Source: Paenibacillus albus
Lineage (GTDB): Bacteria > Bacillota > Bacilli > Paenibacillales > Paenibacillaceae
Direction of reading: 5' to 3'
DNA: 64,000 bases
Assembly: GCF_003952225.1 (NCBI RefSeq)
Contig: NZ_CP034437.1
Span: 5,470,501-5,534,500, forward strand
A program made the position numbers and the translations under genes. The notes beneath the pieces are model-generated. The model did no database searches. It was given only the letters and a program-made list of their open reading frames with translations, and was not told the DNA's origin. Position 1 is the first letter of the stretch. Every line of letters begins with the position of its first letter. Shown piece by piece: positions 6,080 through 44,354 of this stretch.

Positions 6080-7534
6080 TTATTCATTCAAATAAGTCGT
6101 GACCCGATTCTGTATCAGCTCGGCGACGTCATCAGCGGATTTCTGCCCTGCGAAGAAAGCTTTGACTTCCTCTGCGACGATTTGCTGAACGGTCGTTTCA
6201 TAGCCCATATTTCTTAGGCTGGCTGCGGACAGCATGTCCCGAAGAGCATTCAGATTCTCATCCGTTACTTTAACAACTGCCCCGCCACCTTTAGCACCAA
6301 CGTCTTTATCAATGCCATTCTTCTTTACATCTTCCACAGCCTTTTCATTTACGGCTTTATTCATCGCAAAACCCGTCTGATGAGGATAATTTTGCATTTC
6401 CTCAGACAGCAGAAACTTCATGAACTCCCACGCATCCCTCTTGACCTCCGAATGAGCATTCATCGCGATTTGATTCGTCACAAGGAAAGAAACGCCCGAT
6501 TGTTGGTCTGAAGCATGCGGCTTCTGATAAACCTTGCTGTTCTTGAAGTAAGAAGCAAGTCGTACGAGATAATCGCTTGGGGAAGTCATTAATGAATAGG
6601 ATAAGAGGCTCTTTCTGAATTGGGCGGCATCGTCGCTCAGCTCCTTCTCATCGTACATCTCCTTCACTTCCGTCAATAATTCGGTAAAGAATGGCGTATC
6701 AAAAGAAGCCTTGGCATTCGCCCCATCAATTAAACGCTTATAATTATCCGACACGAGATTGTTGATCATCGCCTCAGGCGGCAAAAAGTTCATGGAGTAG
6801 CCGCTTCCGTTCTTGCCTGCCAGCTGCTTGCTAATCTCGGTGAACTGGTTCCACGTCCAGTTCTTGTCGTCAATCGCAACACCCGCTTTCTTAAGCCCAT
6901 CCGTGTCACCGTACAAAGCTTCCAAGTAGAATTCTACAGGCATAATGTACAGGCCCCCGTTCATCTTCGAGCCTTCCATAATGTTCATCTGGTACTGCTG
7001 CTGATCGAATCCGGTATCACGCTTGATCCAATCGTCCACATTCTCAAACGCTCCATGATTAACGTACTTATCGATAGGCAATTCGACAGTCGTAAACGCG
7101 AATAAATCCGCTCCCTTGCCAGATAAAACCTCGGTTGTCGTCGATTTGATATACTTCTCGACTTCGGATTCACTCATCATGGCACCCGATTCAAATTCTT
7201 TGAATTCAATCGTCGTATTCGGATGCAGCGCTTCGTATTTTTCTTTTGCAAGCTTGTAAAAAGGAGAAATACCAAGAATGGATACGACAATTTTCTTCGG
7301 TTTACCGTCTAACGGCTCCAGTCCCTGAACCGCCTGAACCATAGTCGAATCCGCCTTCTCGCTTACTTCTCTGCTTGATTGATTGGTCGTATTCTTGGAT
7401 TGCTTCTCGCCAACAGGCGAAGATGTTGGCTCAGAAATTCCGTTATTGCTGTTACCATTCTGACATGCCGATAAGGACACTACCAAGATGCAGCCTATGA
7501 GTACAAATAAAATGCGGTTCATATCCATTCCCAC
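6080..7534 (-). CDS. ABC transporter solute-binding lipoprotein (family 1, sugar type)
   Basis: Extracellular substrate-binding lipoprotein of about 480 residues. A signal peptide ends in the lipobox LSAC (Cys about residue 24), and an Asn/Ser/Thr-rich linker and a family-1 (MalE-like) fold follow. Typical motifs are YEALHPNTTIEFKEF near the start and WEFMKFLLSEEMQ near the end. The start is uncertain: GTG at 7534, ATG at 7528 or ATG at 7522 all lie within reach of GGAAAG/GTGGGA. It is the last gene of the amidase-permease-permease-adaptor unit, whereas binding-protein genes more often come first. The ligand is unknown; the neighbouring amidase suggests a cell-wall fragment or surface glycan, which is inference. 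Confidence 0.88.
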   Translation of the reverse strand: MGMDMNRILFVLIGCILVVSLSACQNGNSNNGISEPTSSPVGEKQSKNTTNQSSREVSEKADSTMVQAVQGLEPLDGKPKKIVVSILGISPFYKLAKEKYEALHPNTTIEFKEFESGAMMSESEVEKYIKSTTTEVLSGKGADLFAFTTVELPIDKYVNHGAFENVDDWIKRDTGFDQQQYQMNIMEGSKMNGGLYIMPVEFYLEALYGDTDGLKKAGVAIDDKNWTWNQFTEISKQLAGKNGSGYSMNFLPPEAMINNLVSDNYKRLIDGANAKASFDTPFFTELLTEVKEMYDEKELSDDAAQFRKSLLSYSLMTSPSDYLVRLASYFKNSKVYQKPHASDQQSGVSFLVTNQIAMNAHSEVKRDAWEFMKFLLSEEMQNYPHQTGFAMNKAVNEKAVEDVKKNGIDKDVGAKGGGAVVKVTDENLNALRDMLSAASLRNMGYETTVQQIVAEEVKAFFAGQKSADDVAELIQNRVTTYLNE

Positions 7535-7555: not shown

Positions 7556-8668
7556 TTAAGGAGTCATAACCCGAACACGCTCTCCGTCCATCACCGCAGG
7601 TTCACTGCTTGCCAGAATAATCGGTGCGTCCGGAAAAACCCCTTGCAGCACGACCGTATCGGACCCGTTGGACTCGCCAGTTTCAATTGGCATCTTGCGA
7701 ACAAGGCTTGTATTCCCGAGTGGACCTTTACGCTCCTCAACGACGTAAACATACGTTTCTGATCCTTCTTTATGAATTGCGCTGCTCGGAACAAGAGTTC
7801 CTCCCGTACCCGCGGAAACAAACCGAAGGTCAAGACGCGCTTGTTCGCCACCGCGAAGGGATTCATCCTTCACTGCAATGACGACATTGATTTGGGATTC
7901 CTTGTTCTCGATTGCCGAGACGATCCCATCCAGCACCTTCGCGTCGCCTCCTTGACCGACCTGGACATCTTGCTTCTGCCCGATCTTCAGATGCTCGCTG
8001 ATTATAGGCGGCACCTGTAATACCAATTGATATCCTTTCGCCGAAGAGCTAATTAGAACATCGGGACCGGCGCTGGCTGAGGCCATCCCAACCACGGCAC
8101 CGACCTTAGTCACAACCCCATTAAACGGAGCTTTCATCTCGCGATTGCTGACTAAATCCGTCTTCATACTGTCCAAATTCCGCTGCTGCATGTCCATCGT
8201 CAACCGTGCACTCTTAAGATCCCGCTTCGCGCTTCGCAGTTGGACGTCATCGCCGCTAGCCGCAGCTTCAATATATCGATCTTGTAACCCTTGAATGGAT
8301 AAAGACTGCTGCTCCAGCTGGTCTTTGGCATCCAGGTAACGGTTCTCCGCATCAACGCTTTCATAAACGACGAGCGTCTGTCCCTTACGAACGGCATCGC
8401 CAGCTCTGACTTTGACATTCTTGATAGCCCATCCCGCATGGTTCGATAATGCTGCTTCCGTAACCGGCTCCAGCACGCCGCTTCCTGTGTAGCTCTGAAC
8501 GAGTTCTTCCTGTCTCCCTTGCGTTGTCCACACTTTCGTTAAAGTCATCGTACGCAGCGTGTTGCTGAACAAGGTAAGCAGCACGATTCCACTAAGAAAC
8601 AAAGCGGCAATCAACCGGAGCTTCTTCTGCCTGCCAGTGACTGCCTGCTCCACAACTTGCCTCTCCAC
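7556..8668 (-). CDS. HlyD/RND-type membrane fusion (adaptor) protein
   Basis: Membrane-anchored adaptor of 370 residues. There is one membrane segment near residues 18-37, then a biotinyl-lipoyl half (VKVRAGDAVRKGQTLVVYES) and a coiled-coil hairpin of about 80 residues (YLDAKDQLEQQ to LDSMKTDL). The second lipoyl half follows (MKAPFNGVVTKVGAVVGM), then beta-barrel and membrane-proximal parts. Known relatives (YknX, MacA, HlyD) serve exporters. Here the gene lies between a MalG-type permease and a sugar-binding protein, with no export ATPase or outer-membrane factor nearby. The start is GTG, with GGAGG 8 nt upstream overlapping the preceding stop codon region. Its role in an importer-like operon is unexplained. 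Confidence 0.85.
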   Translation of the reverse strand: MERQVVEQAVTGRQKKLRLIAALFLSGIVLLTLFSNTLRTMTLTKVWTTQGRQEELVQSYTGSGVLEPVTEAALSNHAGWAIKNVKVRAGDAVRKGQTLVVYESVDAENRYLDAKDQLEQQSLSIQGLQDRYIEAAASGDDVQLRSAKRDLKSARLTMDMQQRNLDSMKTDLVSNREMKAPFNGVVTKVGAVVGMASASAGPDVLISSSAKGYQLVLQVPPIISEHLKIGQKQDVQVGQGGDAKVLDGIVSAIENKESQINVVIAVKDESLRGGEQARLDLRFVSAGTGGTLVPSSAIHKEGSETYVYVVEERKGPLGNTSLVRKMPIETGESNGSDTVVLQGVFPDAPIILASSEPAVMDGERVRVMTP

Positions 8669-8680
8669 TCCGCCAACCTC

Positions 8681-9559
8681 CTACCCTTTAATACCGGACA
8701 TTTGCACGCCTTCGATAAAATAAGACTCCGCATATAGAAATAACAGCACCATCGGCAGCATGTAGAAGACGGATGCCGCATAACCAACGCCTCTCGCCTC
8801 TTGCTGAACGACCGACAGATAGACAGACAGCGGCTGCTTGAAGTCGTCTTCCAGAAAAATGAGCGGCTGCTCCACCATATTCCAATAATCGACGAACAAG
8901 AGAACGATGAGCGCCGCAATGCCTGGTTTTATAAGCGGAATGATGATTTGATGAAAGATGCGAAAATGTCCGGCTCCGTCCATGTAAGCAGCTTCAACGT
9001 AAGCAGTCGGAATCGACAGCATGAACTGCCGCAGCATGAACACGCCGAAAGCGCCGAAGATACCGGGAAGAACGATGGCACCCGCGCTGTTCAGAAGTCC
9101 TAACTTATCCGCAATGATATAGTTCGGTACGAGCGTTACTTGAAACGGCATCAACATCGCAATCAAGTAAACGAAGAACATCCGATCTCTCCCCCGAAAA
9201 CGGAGCTTGGCAAAAGCATATGCCGCAAATGCGCCAACGGCGACCTGCCCCGCGATGATGATAGCAACCATATAAACCGAATTCCAGAACAGGTTCAAAT
9301 AGGTTGGCGTTGCAAGCAGCACTTTGTTGTACTGTTCAAACGAAACCCAGTCGGGGATAAGCTTGAGATTGACGAATGCATCCTTGCCGCCCGTTGCCGC
9401 GTTCGTCATTTGCCCGACCAGGTCATAGTTCGATCCGATCTCCTGCTCCGTCATGAGCGAATTCGTGAAGGAAATGATGATCGGCAGAAGCATCAGCACC
9501 GCAAGCAGGGCAAGAATTAGCGTGATCGCACCTTTCGTAAAGGCAGCTTTCAACTTCAA
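8681..9559 (-). CDS. Carbohydrate ABC transporter permease, MalG type
   Basis: Inner-membrane permease of about 292 residues with six predicted membrane segments. The EAA loop EAAYMDGAGHFRIFHQIIIPLIKPG is characteristic of MalG-family permeases and contacts the ATPase. The C-terminal end SGIKG is also typical. The start is TTG, with GGGGGAG 5 nt upstream. The gene follows the MalF-type permease by 12 bp and precedes the HlyD-like adaptor by 12 bp. The extracytoplasmic loop after segment 1 is longer than in most MalG proteins (about 60 residues with ATGGKDAFVNLKL). No ATP-binding subunit gene is present, so a shared MsmX-like ATPase elsewhere is likely. Confidence 0.9.
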   Translation of the reverse strand: MKLKAAFTKGAITLILALLAVLMLLPIIISFTNSLMTEQEIGSNYDLVGQMTNAATGGKDAFVNLKLIPDWVSFEQYNKVLLATPTYLNLFWNSVYMVAIIIAGQVAVGAFAAYAFAKLRFRGRDRMFFVYLIAMLMPFQVTLVPNYIIADKLGLLNSAGAIVLPGIFGAFGVFMLRQFMLSIPTAYVEAAYMDGAGHFRIFHQIIIPLIKPGIAALIVLLFVDYWNMVEQPLIFLEDDFKQPLSVYLSVVQQEARGVGYAASVFYMLPMVLLFLYAESYFIEGVQMSGIKG

Positions 9560-9571
9560 TGCTTCTCCCCC

Positions 9572-10441
9572 TTAATCCAAGTCTTTTGTAAAACGTCGTT
9601 CTAAAGCAAACATTCCGGACACTAACAAGAGCAGACATACCACCATGACTACAGCGGCTGACGTAAGCTTCTGCATATCAAGCGACAAGAACATATTGTT
9701 CATATAGTGCTGCAGCATATAGATGCTGTCGTGGGGATAATCGCTGGCGATCAAATACGTTTCCCTGAATATCCGAAACGAGCTGATGAGCCCCATCAAG
9801 ACAACGAAAAACAAAGTCGGCGTCAAATAAACGAGCGTAATTCGGGCTAGCTTATGAAATGTACCAGCGCCTTCAAGGTCAGCCGTCTCATAGTAGTCCT
9901 TCGGGATATTCTGCAAGCCGGCCAAGAACAGAATGATATTGTAGCCGATGTTCTTCCAGGCATAGACGACTGATAACACGCCTCTCGCCCATTCCGACTT
10001 CATCCAATCGATTCGCGACAGGCCGAATCCGTACAGCCAGCTATTCACCGTTCCGTTCCAGTCGAACAGCACTTGCCAGATGAGAACAACTGAAGCGACA
10101 GGCACGACTAAAGGCAGTACATAAGCGGTTCTGAGCCAATTACGGAGATAGATGCTTTGATTGAGCAGCAAGGCAAGCAATAACGATAAAGCGATCGTGA
10201 TCGGAACGCTCACTGAAGTAAACAGAAACGTATTCTGGGCTGCTTTCCGGAAGGAATCGCTATTCAGCAGTTCCTTGTAATTGGCGAGCCCAACGAATGA
10301 ACCGTCATTCGGCCGATCCAGAAAGGAATACCACAAGCCCATCGCAAAAGGAATCAAGTAGAAGACCAAGAATCCAAGGGCGCTGGGAGCAAGAAACCAA
10401 ATAGCAACGACGCTGTGCCGCCGCATGATTACACGGAACAT
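9572..10441 (-). CDS. Carbohydrate ABC transporter permease, MalF/UgpA type
   Basis: Inner-membrane permease of 289 residues with six predicted membrane segments. The EAA motif is YETADLEGAGTFHKLARITL, the contact site for the ATPase. The upstream in-frame ATG at 10462 has no ribosome site. The ATG at 10441 has GGAAGGGAGG about 6 nt before it, so that start is used. The gene begins some 25 bp after the amidase stop, so both are on one transcript. It pairs with the MalG-type permease directly downstream. Substrate unknown. Confidence 0.9.
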   Translation of the reverse strand: MFRVIMRRHSVVAIWFLAPSALGFLVFYLIPFAMGLWYSFLDRPNDGSFVGLANYKELLNSDSFRKAAQNTFLFTSVSVPITIALSLLLALLLNQSIYLRNWLRTAYVLPLVVPVASVVLIWQVLFDWNGTVNSWLYGFGLSRIDWMKSEWARGVLSVVYAWKNIGYNIILFLAGLQNIPKDYYETADLEGAGTFHKLARITLVYLTPTLFFVVLMGLISSFRIFRETYLIASDYPHDSIYMLQHYMNNMFLSLDMQKLTSAAVVMVVCLLLLVSGMFALERRFTKDLD

Positions 10442-10465
10442 GGCTTGCCTCCCTTCCTCCATCTG

Positions 10466-11155
10466 TTAATGAAGGCTATTGACAACGCCGCTTGCAATGG
10501 CTGTTGAGATTTGATTTTGAAACGACTCGGTCTGCATTCTCGTCTCTTCCTTCTTATTCGAAATGTATCCAAGCTCCAGCAGAACAGCCGGCTTCGCGTT
10601 CTCACGGATCACATGATAATCGCCGAACCTTACGCCTCGATCCTTCGTATTCAGGTCTTGTTTGAATAGCTGGTCATGGATCTTCTCTGCGATCATCTGA
10701 TCCTGCGGTTTATAGTAGAACGTCGTCATCCCATACACATCGCTCGTCTGAAACGCATCAAAGTGGATGCTTATGAATAAGTCTGCGTTCTCCGATTGCG
10801 CCACTGCTGTTCTTTCATTGAGCGAGATCGTCGTATCCGCATCGCGCGTCATCACTACGGTCGCACCTTGCTGGACCAGCTTCTGTCTCACGTTTAACGC
10901 TGTAAGCAGCGTAACGTCTTTCTCGTAAGTTCCATTACCGCCAGTGGAGCCGACATCCTTGCCGCCATGGCCGGGATCGAGAACGATCGTTTTGCCTTTC
11001 AAAGGCAGATTGACGTTCGTGCACGATTTAGCTGTATTAGACCCGCCAGCACTTACCTTCGCTTTCGTTGCTCCTTCGGTTTGAAATTGGAATAAACTCG
11101 CTGACAATATGACTCCGACAATTGCTATGGCCAAATGTTTCGTAGTTGTTTTCAT
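10466..11155 (-). CDS. N-acetylmuramoyl-L-alanine amidase (Amidase_3), secreted
   Basis: Zinc amidase that cleaves the bond between muramic acid and the stem peptide in peptidoglycan. An N-terminal signal peptide (MKTTTKHLAIAIVGVILSAS) is followed by the Amidase_3 domain. Zinc ligands are His in VLDPGHGGKD, Glu in GTYEKDVTLL and His in FISIHFDAF; the catalytic Glu is in AVLLELGYISN. There is no SPOR, LysM or SLH anchor. A longer frame starts at 11239 but would begin inside a terminator hairpin. The ATG at 11155 gives a clean signal peptide. Only a weak GATGGG precedes it, and a TATGAT -10-like box ends just 6 nt upstream, so the mRNA may be leaderless. Confidence 0.88.
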   Translation of the reverse strand: MKTTTKHLAIAIVGVILSASLFQFQTEGATKAKVSAGGSNTAKSCTNVNLPLKGKTIVLDPGHGGKDVGSTGGNGTYEKDVTLLTALNVRQKLVQQGATVVMTRDADTTISLNERTAVAQSENADLFISIHFDAFQTSDVYGMTTFYYKPQDQMIAEKIHDQLFKQDLNTKDRGVRFGDYHVIRENAKPAVLLELGYISNKKEETRMQTESFQNQISTAIASGVVNSLH

Positions 11156-11161
11156 AGACCC

Positions 11162-11167
11162 ATCATA
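11162..11167 (-). promoter_or_regulatory. -10-like box of the amidase/ABC unit
   Basis: TATGAT on the minus strand, 29 nt downstream of the 11-bp repeat pair at 11197-11218. No good -35 hexamer is seen, as expected for an activator-dependent promoter. A start of transcription about 7 nt downstream would fall on the amidase ATG. Inferred from pattern and spacing only. Confidence 0.45.
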
Positions 11168-11196
11168 ATGAACGCCCATTAAGACGAAGTGGAGCC

Positions 11197-11218
11197 GAAA
11201 TGAAGATGAGATCAAGAT
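11197..11218 (-). promoter_or_regulatory. Pair of 11-bp direct repeats, probable response-regulator site
   Basis: On the plus strand GAAATGAAGAT is followed immediately by GAGATCAAGAT. Each matches the repeat unit AAGATGAAGAT found five times before the response regulator gene (13881-13935) at 9 of 11 positions. The promoter-side edge is 29 nt from the -10-like TATGAT, the same distance as at the regulator promoter. OmpR-family regulators typically bind direct repeats of this period. Confidence 0.6.
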
Positions 11219-11226
11219 TTCAATAC

Positions 11227-11274
11227 AAAAAAACCGCATGTCGAGCAGGCAAAATTCACCTACAAGACATGCGG
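11227..11274 (-). terminator. Rho-independent terminator after the kinase gene
   Basis: Stem CCGCATGTC/GACATGCGG with a run of seven U on the minus-strand transcript, 28 bp after the kinase stop codon. It separates the two-component operon from the amidase/ABC operon. Confidence 0.85.
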
Positions 11275-11301
11275 CAACAAGGGCAGCATCGTATCCGTTT
11301 A

Positions 11302-13113
11302 TTAGCTGTGTTTATTCAAGCTGAAGAAGAAAGCAACGCCATCCTTTGTATTGGCTGCGCCGTATCTCGCTCCATGCAGCTCCAGTATATTTTTGGAGAT
11401 GGCAAGTCCAAGACCCGTTCCTCCGTCAGATCGCTGCCGCGCCGTATCGCCCCGGTAGAAGCGATCCCACACTTTATCAAGCTGCTCCTCAGGAATTCGA
11501 GCGCCTTTGTTCTCGATACAGACGACGATTTGATTCGCCTCATCGGTCGTGGAAACGACGATCTCTTGCTCTTGCGGTGTGTAGCGGATCGCATTCGTCA
11601 TGAAATTCGTAACGACTTGTTCAATCCGATGTTGGTTCGCAACGACCAGGGCAGGAACGAGCTGAACGGTTAGCCGTAATTCCTTCACCGCGATTTCATG
11701 CGCCAGCTGCGCACAGACGGACTCGATCAGCTTATCAATGTAGAACGTATCCATCTGCATGTTGTACGTTCCCGATTCGTACTTCGCGAGCTCTAGCATG
11801 TCGACAATGAGATGGTCCATCTTATCGACTTCTTTCTCCATCGCTTCGAAATAATGGTCCTTTTTATGTGCAGCTACACCATCCTTTAGGATCGATATGC
11901 AGCTCTTCATTACGCTCAGCGGCGTCTTAAGCTCATGGGATACGCCGGAGATGAACTCTTTTCTCGTCGTCTCAAGCTGCTTCTCTCTCTCGATATCTTC
12001 CTGCAGCTTGCCGATGTAAGAATACAGCGTAGCAGACAGCTGGTTGATGTTGCGGGACAGATCCCCGATCTCGTCCTTAGAACGGATAGGTATCTTCTCC
12101 GAGAAATCGAGATTTGCGATTTTCTTCGTCGTTTGGTTAATACGCAGCAGCGGCCTTGCAATCTTCATGGAGAAGTACAGCGCCGAGATTAGAATGAGCA
12201 CAATGACAAACACGATGATATAGACATAGTAGTCCTTCATCATTTGTACGGCTTCGTCTACTGGCTGCAGCGATGCCATGGCGAAGATATAGTTGGTCGT
12301 TCCCTTCTGGTAATGAACAGGCTGGATGAAGAGCTTATACTTAACGTTATTTTGCTCATAATCCTGGATGAGAAGCGAATCTTGGAGCTGCAATTTCTCA
12401 AATAACAGCTTCGCTTGAAAGGCATTGATTTGTTCCAGGAAGAGCTTATTGGAATAGATAAAGTCTGATGAGGCTCCGCCACTTGGAATTCGGATATCTG
12501 TGACAACTCCAAATAAATTCACCAATGACGATTGATCGGAGGCGAGCGGTTTCCTTTTTTCGATAAAACCAGCTCTCTCGCTGCCCTTGAAAACGTTACG
12601 CTTGAATAGCTCATTGGCATACAATAATTCCCCGGACGGATGCTGCACCACAATGGGAGTAAGTATGGAGTTACTTTTTACCCCTGTAACAATTATTTGG
12701 TCTCCAATTGCAATTAACGATTGGCCTGAAGCGGCTTCCTCCATGTTCATGAGCTGATAAAGAGGGACTTTAATGCGCGCCTTCTCTTCCTCCTTCGTCA
12801 AAGCCTTGAGCATTCTCATCTCCATGTAGAAGTCGTTTACATCCTTAAGATTGCCGTCATGATCCAAGCTCGTTATCGTTACGTTGTTGTTTCTGTAGAA
12901 ATCCTGCTCTAGCGATTGAATGACAAGCGAGTTTCCACCAGCATCCATATACGTTGTCTTGAACACCTCAATCTTAGCCTGCAAGTCGCTCACCTTGCGA
13001 TTCGCATAGTAGTCTTTGAAGAAATAAGTTTGGCCAAAATAAATAACTGCTAAGATGAGCATGCACAACGTTGTCGTCAAAATGAACAGTTTGAGCACAA
13101 TGGAGCTTCTCAT
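11302..13113 (-). CDS. Sensor histidine kinase with large extracellular domain
   Basis: Membrane histidine kinase of 603 residues. Membrane segment 1 spans about residues 8-30, an extracellular sensor domain of about 260 residues follows, and segment 2 spans about 296-315. A HAMP domain (about 316-368) precedes the HisKA box GVSHELKTPLSV with the His at about 393. The N box is NFMTNAIRYTPQ, with F box WDRFYRGDTA and G2 GGTGLGLAISKN. Its ATG overlaps the response regulator stop by 4 bp, so the two are cotranscribed and translationally coupled. Position next to an amidase and a transporter suggests that it senses an envelope signal or the transported ligand; this is inference. Confidence 0.93.
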   Translation of the reverse strand: MRSSIVLKLFILTTTLCMLILAVIYFGQTYFFKDYYANRKVSDLQAKIEVFKTTYMDAGGNSLVIQSLEQDFYRNNNVTITSLDHDGNLKDVNDFYMEMRMLKALTKEEEKARIKVPLYQLMNMEEAASGQSLIAIGDQIIVTGVKSNSILTPIVVQHPSGELLYANELFKRNVFKGSERAGFIEKRKPLASDQSSLVNLFGVVTDIRIPSGGASSDFIYSNKLFLEQINAFQAKLLFEKLQLQDSLLIQDYEQNNVKYKLFIQPVHYQKGTTNYIFAMASLQPVDEAVQMMKDYYVYIIVFVIVLILISALYFSMKIARPLLRINQTTKKIANLDFSEKIPIRSKDEIGDLSRNINQLSATLYSYIGKLQEDIEREKQLETTRKEFISGVSHELKTPLSVMKSCISILKDGVAAHKKDHYFEAMEKEVDKMDHLIVDMLELAKYESGTYNMQMDTFYIDKLIESVCAQLAHEIAVKELRLTVQLVPALVVANQHRIEQVVTNFMTNAIRYTPQEQEIVVSTTDEANQIVVCIENKGARIPEEQLDKVWDRFYRGDTARQRSDGGTGLGLAISKNILELHGARYGAANTKDGVAFFFSLNKHS

Positions 13114-13793
13114 ACATGAGCCTCGAACTTGTAGCCCGTCCGTACAATTGTAACAATCGAGGTGGCTCTACCTCCAAGCTTCGTACGCAGGTTGCGGATA
13201 TGCGTATTCACCGTACGGTCGTCTCCCGCATACTCGTAGCCCCATATCTTCGTAATCAGCTGCTCACGCGTGATGACGATACCTTGATTCTCCATCAGGT
13301 AAGTAAGAATCTCGAATTCGGTATGCGTGAAATTAACTAAAACACCGTCAATCATAACCGTCCTTGATGGAAAATGAACCTTAATGCCACGTATTTCTAT
13401 GGAATCCTCCAGCTTCGAGGGCTTGCCATTCTTACTACGGCTTTCAAGCAGACGCTTCGCCCTTGCGAGCAGAACAGGCGGGCTGTATGGTTTCGTCACG
13501 TAGTCGTCTGCGCCCAGCTCAAACCCAAGCAGCGTATCGTCTTCATCGACTCGGGCTGTGAGCATGATGATCGGAACGTCTGAGGATTTGCGGATACGGC
13601 GGCATACCGACCATCCGTTCAATTCCGGCAGCATGATATCCAGCACGATCAGATCGACTTCATGCGCCTGAAACAGCTCCAGAGCAGCCTTCCCGTCCGC
13701 GGCCTCCAGCACCTTATAGCCTTCATTTAAGAAGTAATCTTTGCTTATCTCACGTAAAATTGCCTCGTCTTCGACAATCAATATTGTTTTCAT
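13110..13793 (-). CDS. OmpR-family response regulator
   Basis: Cytoplasmic two-component regulator of 227 residues. The receiver domain has the acidic pair VEDE near residue 8-10, phosphoacceptor Asp52 in LIVLDIMLPELNG, the switch Thr in IIMLTARVD and Lys in YVTKPYSPP. An OmpR-type winged helix ends with VRTGYKFEAHV. It is the first gene of the regulator-kinase operon, with GGGAG about 8 nt before the ATG. Five tandem 11-bp repeats lie directly upstream of its TATAAT box, a textbook layout for autoregulation by an OmpR-family protein. The same repeat type precedes the amidase/ABC unit, its likely target. Confidence 0.94.
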   Translation of the reverse strand: MKTILIVEDEAILREISKDYFLNEGYKVLEAADGKAALELFQAHEVDLIVLDIMLPELNGWSVCRRIRKSSDVPIIMLTARVDEDDTLLGFELGADDYVTKPYSPPVLLARAKRLLESRSKNGKPSKLEDSIEIRGIKVHFPSRTVMIDGVLVNFTHTEFEILTYLMENQGIVITREQLITKIWGYEYAGDDRTVNTHIRNLRTKLGGRATSIVTIVRTGYKFEAHV

Positions 13794-13845
13794 TCTGCTG
13801 CTCCCGTTTCGCCGATGTCAAAATTAGTTTGTCCAACCATTTCTC

Positions 13846-13873
13846 ATTATACGGGGAGCAAATCAAGAGCAAG
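13846..13873 (-). promoter_or_regulatory. Promoter of the response regulator operon
   Basis: Minus-strand -10 box TATAAT (13846-13851). Only a weak -35 (CTTGCT, 13868-13873) lies at a 16-nt spacing. The weak -35 next to the repeat array suggests activation. Confidence 0.6.
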
Positions 13874-13880
13874 TCTAGAT

Positions 13881-13935
13881 CAGATGAAGATAAGATGAAG
13901 ATAAGATGAAGATAAGATGAAGATAAGATGAAGAA
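13881..13935 (-). repeat. Five tandem 11-bp direct repeats, probable OmpR-type operator
   Basis: Unit AAGATGAAGAT on the plus strand, five copies at exactly 11-bp intervals. The three inner copies are perfect and the first and last differ at one end base. One helical turn per repeat puts all copies on the same face of the DNA. The array ends 29 nt before the -10 box of the response regulator promoter. Confidence 0.75.
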
Positions 13936-19282: not shown

Positions 19283-19924
19283 ATGAATCAATATGGGCAG
19301 CAGCATTTCGGGCACGCATCTCAATCATCCTTCGCTAACGGATTCTCGAACTACAATGCTTCCCAGCAACCGGTCATTTCTCATTTTGGCGGTTATCAGG
19401 CACAGAATTCGCAGCAGTACGGCGGGCAGCCTCAGCAAGCTTACTCGCAAAGCATTTCCAGCAATTTAAGCGGAATGGACCAGCCGGTCATCTCCCATTT
19501 TGGCGGTTATCAGGCACAGAATTCGCAGCAGTACGGCGGACAGCCACAACAAGCCCACATGCATGCTTATTCGCAAGCAAGCGGCCAGCAGCCGGTCATT
19601 TCCCATTTTGGCGGCTATCAAGCTAACCATGCGATGTACGGCGGGCAGCCTCAGCAAGCCCACATGCATGCTTACTCGCAGACAAGCGGCCAGCAGCCGG
19701 TCATTTCCCATTTTGGCGGTTATCAAGCTAACAATGCGCAGTACGGCGGGCAGCCACAACAAGCCCACATGCATGCTTACTCGCAAACAAACGGCCAGCA
19801 GCCGGTCATTTCCCACTATGGCGGCTATCAAGCTCAGAATTCGCAGTATGGCGGATACCCTCAGCAAGCGTCGTATCAATCTTCGCAGCCTGTAATCAGC
19901 CAGCTTGGCTATACAAGCAACTAA
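19283..19924 (+). CDS. Tandem-repeat, Gln/Gly/Tyr/His-rich protein of unknown function
   Basis: The predicted 213-residue protein is built of five repeats of about 33-36 residues, plus a degenerate sixth. Each begins QPVISHFGGYQA and continues with YGGQPQQAHMHAYSQ. It has no Lys, Arg, Glu, Cys or Trp and only one Asp, so charge comes almost only from His. There is no signal peptide or membrane segment. AGGAGG 9 nt before the ATG at 19283 is strong, so the frame is real; the upstream in-frame start is not needed. The repeats are also nearly identical at DNA level, suggesting recent expansion. Composition recalls spore-coat or self-assembling low-complexity proteins, but no function can be assigned. 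Confidence 0.85.
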   Translation: MNQYGQQHFGHASQSSFANGFSNYNASQQPVISHFGGYQAQNSQQYGGQPQQAYSQSISSNLSGMDQPVISHFGGYQAQNSQQYGGQPQQAHMHAYSQASGQQPVISHFGGYQANHAMYGGQPQQAHMHAYSQTSGQQPVISHFGGYQANNAQYGGQPQQAHMHAYSQTNGQQPVISHYGGYQAQNSQYGGYPQQASYQSSQPVISQLGYTSN

Positions 19925-44046: not shown

Positions 44047-44102
44047 TGCGTGAACTGATCTTGTAATGTTCAACCACTTGAACGGCTCGTTATGCTTGCG
44101 TA

Positions 44103-44328
44103 TCGAACAGACTCGCGCGTCGAAAGTCTTGAAATCGGACTCTCGGCGTAGAATTAGCGAGATTTCATGAACGAGAGTTCGGAATAGCGACTCTCCGCAA
44201 GCCAAGTCGAGCGAATCGAACAGACTCGATCGCCGAAAGTCTAGAAATCGGACTCTCAGCGTTGAATCAGCGAGATTTCATGAACGAGAGTTCGGAATAG
44301 CGACTCTCCGCCAGCCAAGTCGAGCGAA
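44103..44328. repeat. Two tandem copies of a 113-bp intergenic element
   Basis: Copies at 44103-44215 and 44216-44328 differ at only a few bases. Each contains several inverted repeats (for example CGGACTCTC against GAGAGTTCG, and GAGAGT against ACTCTC), so the RNA or single strand could fold. No open frame is supported. Could be an interspersed non-coding element or a duplicated structured region. Confidence 0.7.
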
Positions 44329-44354
44329 TCAATCACACCTGCTCGTTGCATCAA

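Follow-up and report, generated by a model that had tools for sequence, protein, structure and literature searches.

A probable direct-repeat operator shared by a two-component system and a cell-wall amidase operon in Paenibacillus albus

Genes and promoters of the locus

The window, that is, the whole 64-kb stretch of P. albus DNA analysed, carried on its minus strand the genes of a two-component system followed by a five-gene run headed by an amidase gene. The features concerned, in the order of transcription, were:

13857..13933, minus strand: putative operator in front of the regulator gene, built of seven in-register half-sites of 11 bp, comprising five CTTCATCTTAT/CTTCATCTGAT copies and then the degenerate CTAGACTTGCT and CTTGATTTGCT
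13846..13851, minus strand: regulator -10 hexamer TATAAT, 5 nt past the last half-site; best -35 match 2/6
13110..13793, minus strand: OmpR-family response regulator, 227 aa (Response_reg and Trans_reg_C), with the Shine-Dalgarno sequence GGGAGC
11302..13113, minus strand: sensor histidine kinase, 603 aa (HAMP, HisKA, HATPase_c)
11226..11275, minus strand: intrinsic-terminator-like hairpin and T-run in the gap between kinase and amidase (folding against shuffles)
11173..11216, minus strand: putative operator in front of the amidase gene, with four half-sites of 11 bp (models R1 and R2, below)
11162..11167, minus strand: amidase -10 hexamer TATGAT, its first T 12 nt before the ATG
10466..11155, minus strand: N-acetylmuramoyl-L-alanine amidase, 229 aa (Amidase_3), first gene of the second operon
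9572..10462, minus strand: ABC permease (BPD_transp_1)
8681..9559, minus strand: ABC permease (BPD_transp_1)
7556..8668, minus strand: HlyD/RND-type membrane-fusion adaptor (TIGR01730, 99.5 bits, cut-off 94.9)
6080..7534, minus strand: ABC solute-binding protein (SBP_bac_1)

The predicted regulator possessed both domains of the OmpR/PhoB family (PF00072, 2.6e-30; PF00486, 1.3e-23). The genes from amidase to binding protein were separated by gaps of 3 to 21 nt and probably form one co-transcribed unit. Between kinase and amidase, the segment 11217-11300 folded at -31 kcal/mol (z -4.81), a value equalled by 0 of 200 shuffles; the hairpin there presumably acts as a terminator and, because it separates the two genes, the amidase would probably need a promoter and operator of its own. 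The amidase was assigned to Amidase_3, its identification as CwlD being rejected (TIGR02883, 146.9 of 221.55 bits). The adaptor gene (7556-8668) was flanked by ABC genes of importer type, and none of the five operon genes encoded an ATPase; a relative of the adaptor was also found in loci L009-L015 and L032.

On the coding strand, the regulator promoter read (CTTCATCTTAT)x4 CTTCATCTGAT CTAGACTTGCT CTTGATTTGCT CCCCG TATAAT and the amidase promoter CTTGATCTCAT CTTCATTTCGG CTCCACTTCGT CTTAATGGGCG TTCAT TATGAT. An earlier note on this DNA had described five perfect or near-perfect repeats before the regulator gene and two 9-of-11 copies before the amidase, both arrays ending 29 nt from a -10-like hexamer, and this description held. 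Scored against AAGATGAAGAT, the copies at 13892-13902, 13903-13913 and 13914-13924 were perfect and the outer ones at 13881-13891 and 13925-13935 had 1 mismatch each, while Tandem Repeats Finder gave a period of 11, 5.3 copies and 97% matches for this array; the two amidase-side copies, at 11197-11207 and 11208-11218, each matched at 9/11 positions, and the 29-nt spacing was confirmed for TATAAT (13846-13851) and TATGAT (11162-11167), both on the minus strand. Absent from that note was the composition of the 29 nt, which at both promoters consisted of two further degenerate 11-mers plus 5 nt, so that its amidase pair is the outer two of four half-sites. The layout common to both promoters was four 11-bp half-sites with a core that is mostly CTTNAT, then 5 nt, then the -10, with a good -35 absent.

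Conservation of both promoters and the start of the amidase

A query with the kinase returned 34 loci, and the search within the genus covered 22 genomes. L044, L046, L047, L048 and L051 apparently repeat L009, L010, L013, L014 and L032 and were counted once, and the close pairs L011/L012 and L019/L037 make the locus counts overstate independence. In nine relatives (L009 to L014, L045, L049 and L050), both promoters kept one register, with four half-sites followed by 5 nt and a TANNNT; the alignments of these promoters were gap-free, and the third unit was the loosest of the four. At the regulator promoter, it was the four half-sites nearest the -10 that were matched in register in the 9 relatives. 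Since the three extra near-perfect units occurred only in the P. albus genome among the ten loci compared, its array of seven units seems to have expanded from an older, conserved operator of four.

At the amidase promoter, operator and -10 shared a pairwise identity of 0.75 versus 0.33 in the upstream flank (10 loci in one ungapped register, a comparison that depresses the flank value), and within the core, CTT and A were invariant in units 1, 2 and 4 of these loci. The first T of the -10 was located 12 nt before the conserved ATG, leaving a gap of 6 nt, in 10/10 aligned loci (for L013 the ATG giving 6 nt was used, a start 3 nt downstream giving 9), and no Shine-Dalgarno sequence was found before the amidase gene in any of the 10; GGGAGC before the regulator gene was present in all of them. 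The same spacing, read by eye, was observed in L130, a locus outside the genus and the training set, bringing the count to 11/11 close orthologs. An upstream start at ATG 11239, which would give a 257-aa ORF, was rejected: it lies upstream of the promoter and the conserved N-terminus begins at 11155; codons 3 to 5, which vary mostly synonymously among 11 orthologs, also count against it.

Leaderless genes are marked by a TANNNT some 12 bp ahead of their start codon, as described in part of PMC3160421, and with this spacing and no Shine-Dalgarno sequence the amidase mRNA is predicted to be leaderless, starting at the A of the ATG. In excerpts of the respective reports, leaderless genes of Firmicutes are placed mostly in Lactobacillales and Mycoplasma (PMC3160421), and Bacillus methanolicus is given as having no strictly leaderless transcript (PMC4342826). 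The amidase resembles leaderless genes in its -10, the first T of which is 12 nt before the ATG, but differs in being a single gene of a Paenibacillus clade behind a regulated promoter. Its transcript is a candidate for a leaderless mRNA under regulation, in a phylum in which, according to the portion of the survey at hand, Shine-Dalgarno starts dominate (PMC3160421). In more distant loci, namely L024, L030 and the other-family loci examined, the amidase had a leader.

Occurrence of the sites in P. albus and in other genomes

Adjacent pairs of copies with at most 2 mismatches each numbered 5 in the window, 2 of them with a -10 at 29 nt, and 0 in 60 dinucleotide shuffles of the 64 kb. The 55-bp blocks of the two promoters were identical at 36/55 positions, the best among 60 shuffled windows being 32. 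The genome-wide scan for paired motifs that the earlier note had proposed (18 specified bases, at most 3 mismatches) gave 35 matches versus 16 for a reversed control and recovered four in the array but not the amidase pair; a bare two-copy match is therefore weak evidence alone. A 55-bp pattern taken from both promoters, with at most 3 mismatches, matched genome-wide only these promoters and shifted registers of the array (control 0), its perfect matches being by construction, as it was written from both promoters.

Models were then applied to the whole 6.63 Mb genome, with training sites chosen with a CTTYAT template, which favours the layout. Model R1, built from the regulator promoters of the nine relatives with the P. 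albus window excluded, retrieved the regulator promoter at E 1.6e-9, the amidase promoter at 1.2e-8 and the additional units of the array at 5.8e-4, and nothing further below E 0.17 among the 150 of 1015 first-look candidates that were scored. With R2, built from the nine amidase promoters, the amidase promoter was found at 2.9e-13 and the next match at 0.44, and the regulator promoter was not found at E up to 10 (150 of 1443 candidates scored). R3, trained exclusively on 22 sites from other families, which we take to be Bacillaceae and Thermoactinomycetaceae, placed the regulator promoter first (1.6e-5) and the amidase promoter second (0.015), with another match close behind at 0.03 (150 of 2614 candidates scored). 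On these three scans, the regulon in the P. albus genome probably consists of these two promoters.

The sites accompanied the kinase across genomes. Within the genus, 9/9 genomes with a kinase ortholog (E 8.3e-192 or better) had a site below 1e-6, versus 0/13 genomes without one at 1e-3 (best 0.006); seven of the nine had supplied training sequences and two, G000 and G001, had not, and at a loose E of 1 some match appeared in 21/22 genus genomes. Among 147 genomes of the family, sites were present in 15 (1e-3) and the kinase in 34 (1e-120), the kinase occurring in 14/15 site-bearing genomes versus 20/132 without a site, and in 8/9 site-bearing genomes after removal of the six training genomes; no site was found at 1e-3, under stricter filters, in 20 of the 34 with the kinase.

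Half-sites recurred before genes of the module in Bacillaceae and Thermoactinomycetaceae. At E up to 0.01, R1 gave 43 matches in the 28 non-training loci, 39 of which lay no more than about 110 nt before a gene for a permease, a binding protein, an amidase, a deacetylase or a regulator (in L016 the amidase ORF was called from an upstream alternative start, 109 nt before the site end). Counted by the gene that followed, the first permease gene accounted for 11 (including two from a single L015 array), the amidase likewise for 11, the binding protein for 9, a deacetylase gene for 6 and the regulator, at close range, for 2. The remaining four lay 234 nt before the regulator in L026, before an amidase remnant in L015, before a gene for a 186-aa protein in L026 and, in L036, with no gene near. 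No match at this threshold was obtained in 8/28 loci, and a ninth, L036, had only the stray one. The recognition-helix stretch RT[VI]N[TS]HIRNLR was kept in 12/12 aligned regulators of the module and differed in 5/5 more distant ones, a constant helix that fits the constant site.

Several loci had features of their own. In L015, from Paenibacillus marchantiophytorum, a separate six-unit 11-bp array was located at 8003-8076 before the permease gene, and the amidase gene, matched only over residues 77-175, looks degenerate. In six Bacillaceae loci the module was enlarged by a polysaccharide deacetylase gene that had an operator to itself (e.g. L022, 12610-13557); the gene was identified by Pfam in one of the six and by 69 to 73% identity to that one in the other five; an amidase together with a deacetylase is reminiscent of the spore-cortex pair CwlD/PdaA. 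In L114, the segment 1501-2047 held a second operator and, after it, a regulator-like sequence divided over two frames.

Proposed regulation and its alternatives

These data support the earlier proposal of control by the regulator over its own gene and over the amidase/ABC/adaptor unit: the operator is present at both promoters in nine relatives, the two promoters are the top two of R1 genome-wide (150 of 1015 candidates scored), and the operator co-occurs with the kinase and recurs before module genes in other families. We consider, at a probability of about 0.9, that blocks 13846-13933 and 11162-11216 are operators through which the regulator (13110-13793) activates its own and the amidase operon. 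Binding by this regulator, activation rather than repression and the transcription starts we infer as follows. The kinase would phosphorylate the regulator, which would bind head-to-tail to consecutive half-sites spaced by 11 bp, one helical turn, cover the place of the missing -35 and recruit RNA polymerase to the -10 located 5 nt past the last half-site. It would thereby activate the regulator-kinase operon and, past the terminator, the second operon with the genes for the amidase, two permeases, the HlyD-type adaptor and the solute-binding protein, the amidase mRNA starting at the A of the ATG. The -35 hexamers of 20 promoters matched TTGACA at 1 to 4 of 6 positions (17/20 at 3 or fewer, 3 at 4); these are poor matches and the last half-site stops 5 nt short of the -10, which makes activation the natural and most likely reading.

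Since the sites overlap the place of the -35, where a bound protein could also block, the regulator might instead repress from the same operator, keeping polymerase out until a signal arrives. We regard this as very unlikely, as promoters with 3/6 or fewer -35 matches in 17/20 cases look dependent on help, and a distance of 5 nt between last unit and -10 is common to regulator, amidase and other-family permease promoters, as would be expected for contact with polymerase. Nor does it seem at all probable that real operators are bound by another regulator of the OmpR family, such as a WalR-like one: at least 59 kinase-like matches in the genome (59 of 124 candidates scored) make many related regulators likely, and the nearest named families, below cut-off, include YycF and PhoB, but the sites track this two-component system across genomes and adjoin the same system in other families, and WalR would be expected also in genomes without sites. 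Almost no credit is left for a reading in which the array arose by slippage and means nothing, the amidase promoter resembling it by chance. The three extra units are indeed confined to P. albus among ten loci and loose pair matches are common genome-wide, but the four core units are present in nine relatives, shuffles yield no pairs and the amidase promoter scored 1.2e-8 with R1; coincidence was rejected on the R1 genome scan and the window shuffles.

The proposed activation by this regulator from both operators can be set beside known systems. Regulators of the OmpR family recognise direct repeats with a spacing of about one turn, the repeats of the pho box occupying the -35 place, and an 11-bp period, about one helical turn, was found at both promoters and in the relatives. 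On its sequence the system is ordinary in kind, with PhoB-like direct repeats, and well supported. Membership in PhoB/PhoR was rejected (TIGR02154, 197.2 of 296.2 bits), as was membership in WalRK (YycFG; YycF 199.9 versus 340 bits, WalK 231 versus 725 bits). The repeat of HssR, GTTCATATT-N2-GTTCATATT, also has an 11-bp period. An excerpt on PhoB describes two 11-bp direct repeats, with a conserved stretch of 7 bp and a looser one of 4 bp in each (PMC2648988). The likeness to PhoB and the pho box of Escherichia coli is that of an OmpR-family regulator with 11-bp direct repeats, but the P. albus core is CTTNAT versus CTGTCAT, the units number three to seven and apparently two promoters are involved in the genome. 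For HssR and HitR, Gram-positive regulators of staphylococci and Bacillus anthracis, the part of the report available gives a direct repeat before ABC-transporter genes, HitR being predicted to regulate the hitPQRS promoter and with it its own gene (PMC3968170). They are set beside the present system by the repeat before ABC-transporter genes only, which in P. albus has more units and other targets, namely an amidase and importer-type permeases.

The predicted model of the kinase ectodomain (pLDDT 83.9) resembled Cache-type sensors including WalK, with modest scores, and a Foldseek search with it returned no significant match; the kinase is a probable Cache-type sensor. Judged from the target genes, the signal may be, as a guess, cell-wall or glycan turnover. 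The module would join such a sensor to a cell-wall amidase and an importer, to which six Bacillaceae loci add the deacetylase. A probable operator and a small regulon are hereby defined, from sequence alone, for a two-component system of Paenibacillus and other Bacillales, on which a limited literature search found nothing.

Of extra interest are the expanded array and the predicted leaderless amidase. It is conceivable, if rather unlikely, that the number of half-sites, from three to seven units depending on promoter and species, is an evolvable, slippage-driven gain setting combined with a conserved leaderless, activator-dependent amidase mRNA, the seven units before the P. albus regulator and the six before the L015 permease being separate expansions. 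Strains might then carry different numbers of copies, and autoregulation might be tuned by them. For the question of how half-site number tunes a regulator, the perfect repeats are a natural test case. Elsewhere in the window, a 105-bp tandem repeat of 4.7 copies (19363-19869) lay in the open frame of a Gln-, Gly- and His-rich repeat protein, and a 113-bp repeat was present in 2.1 copies with 92% matches at 44098-44330.
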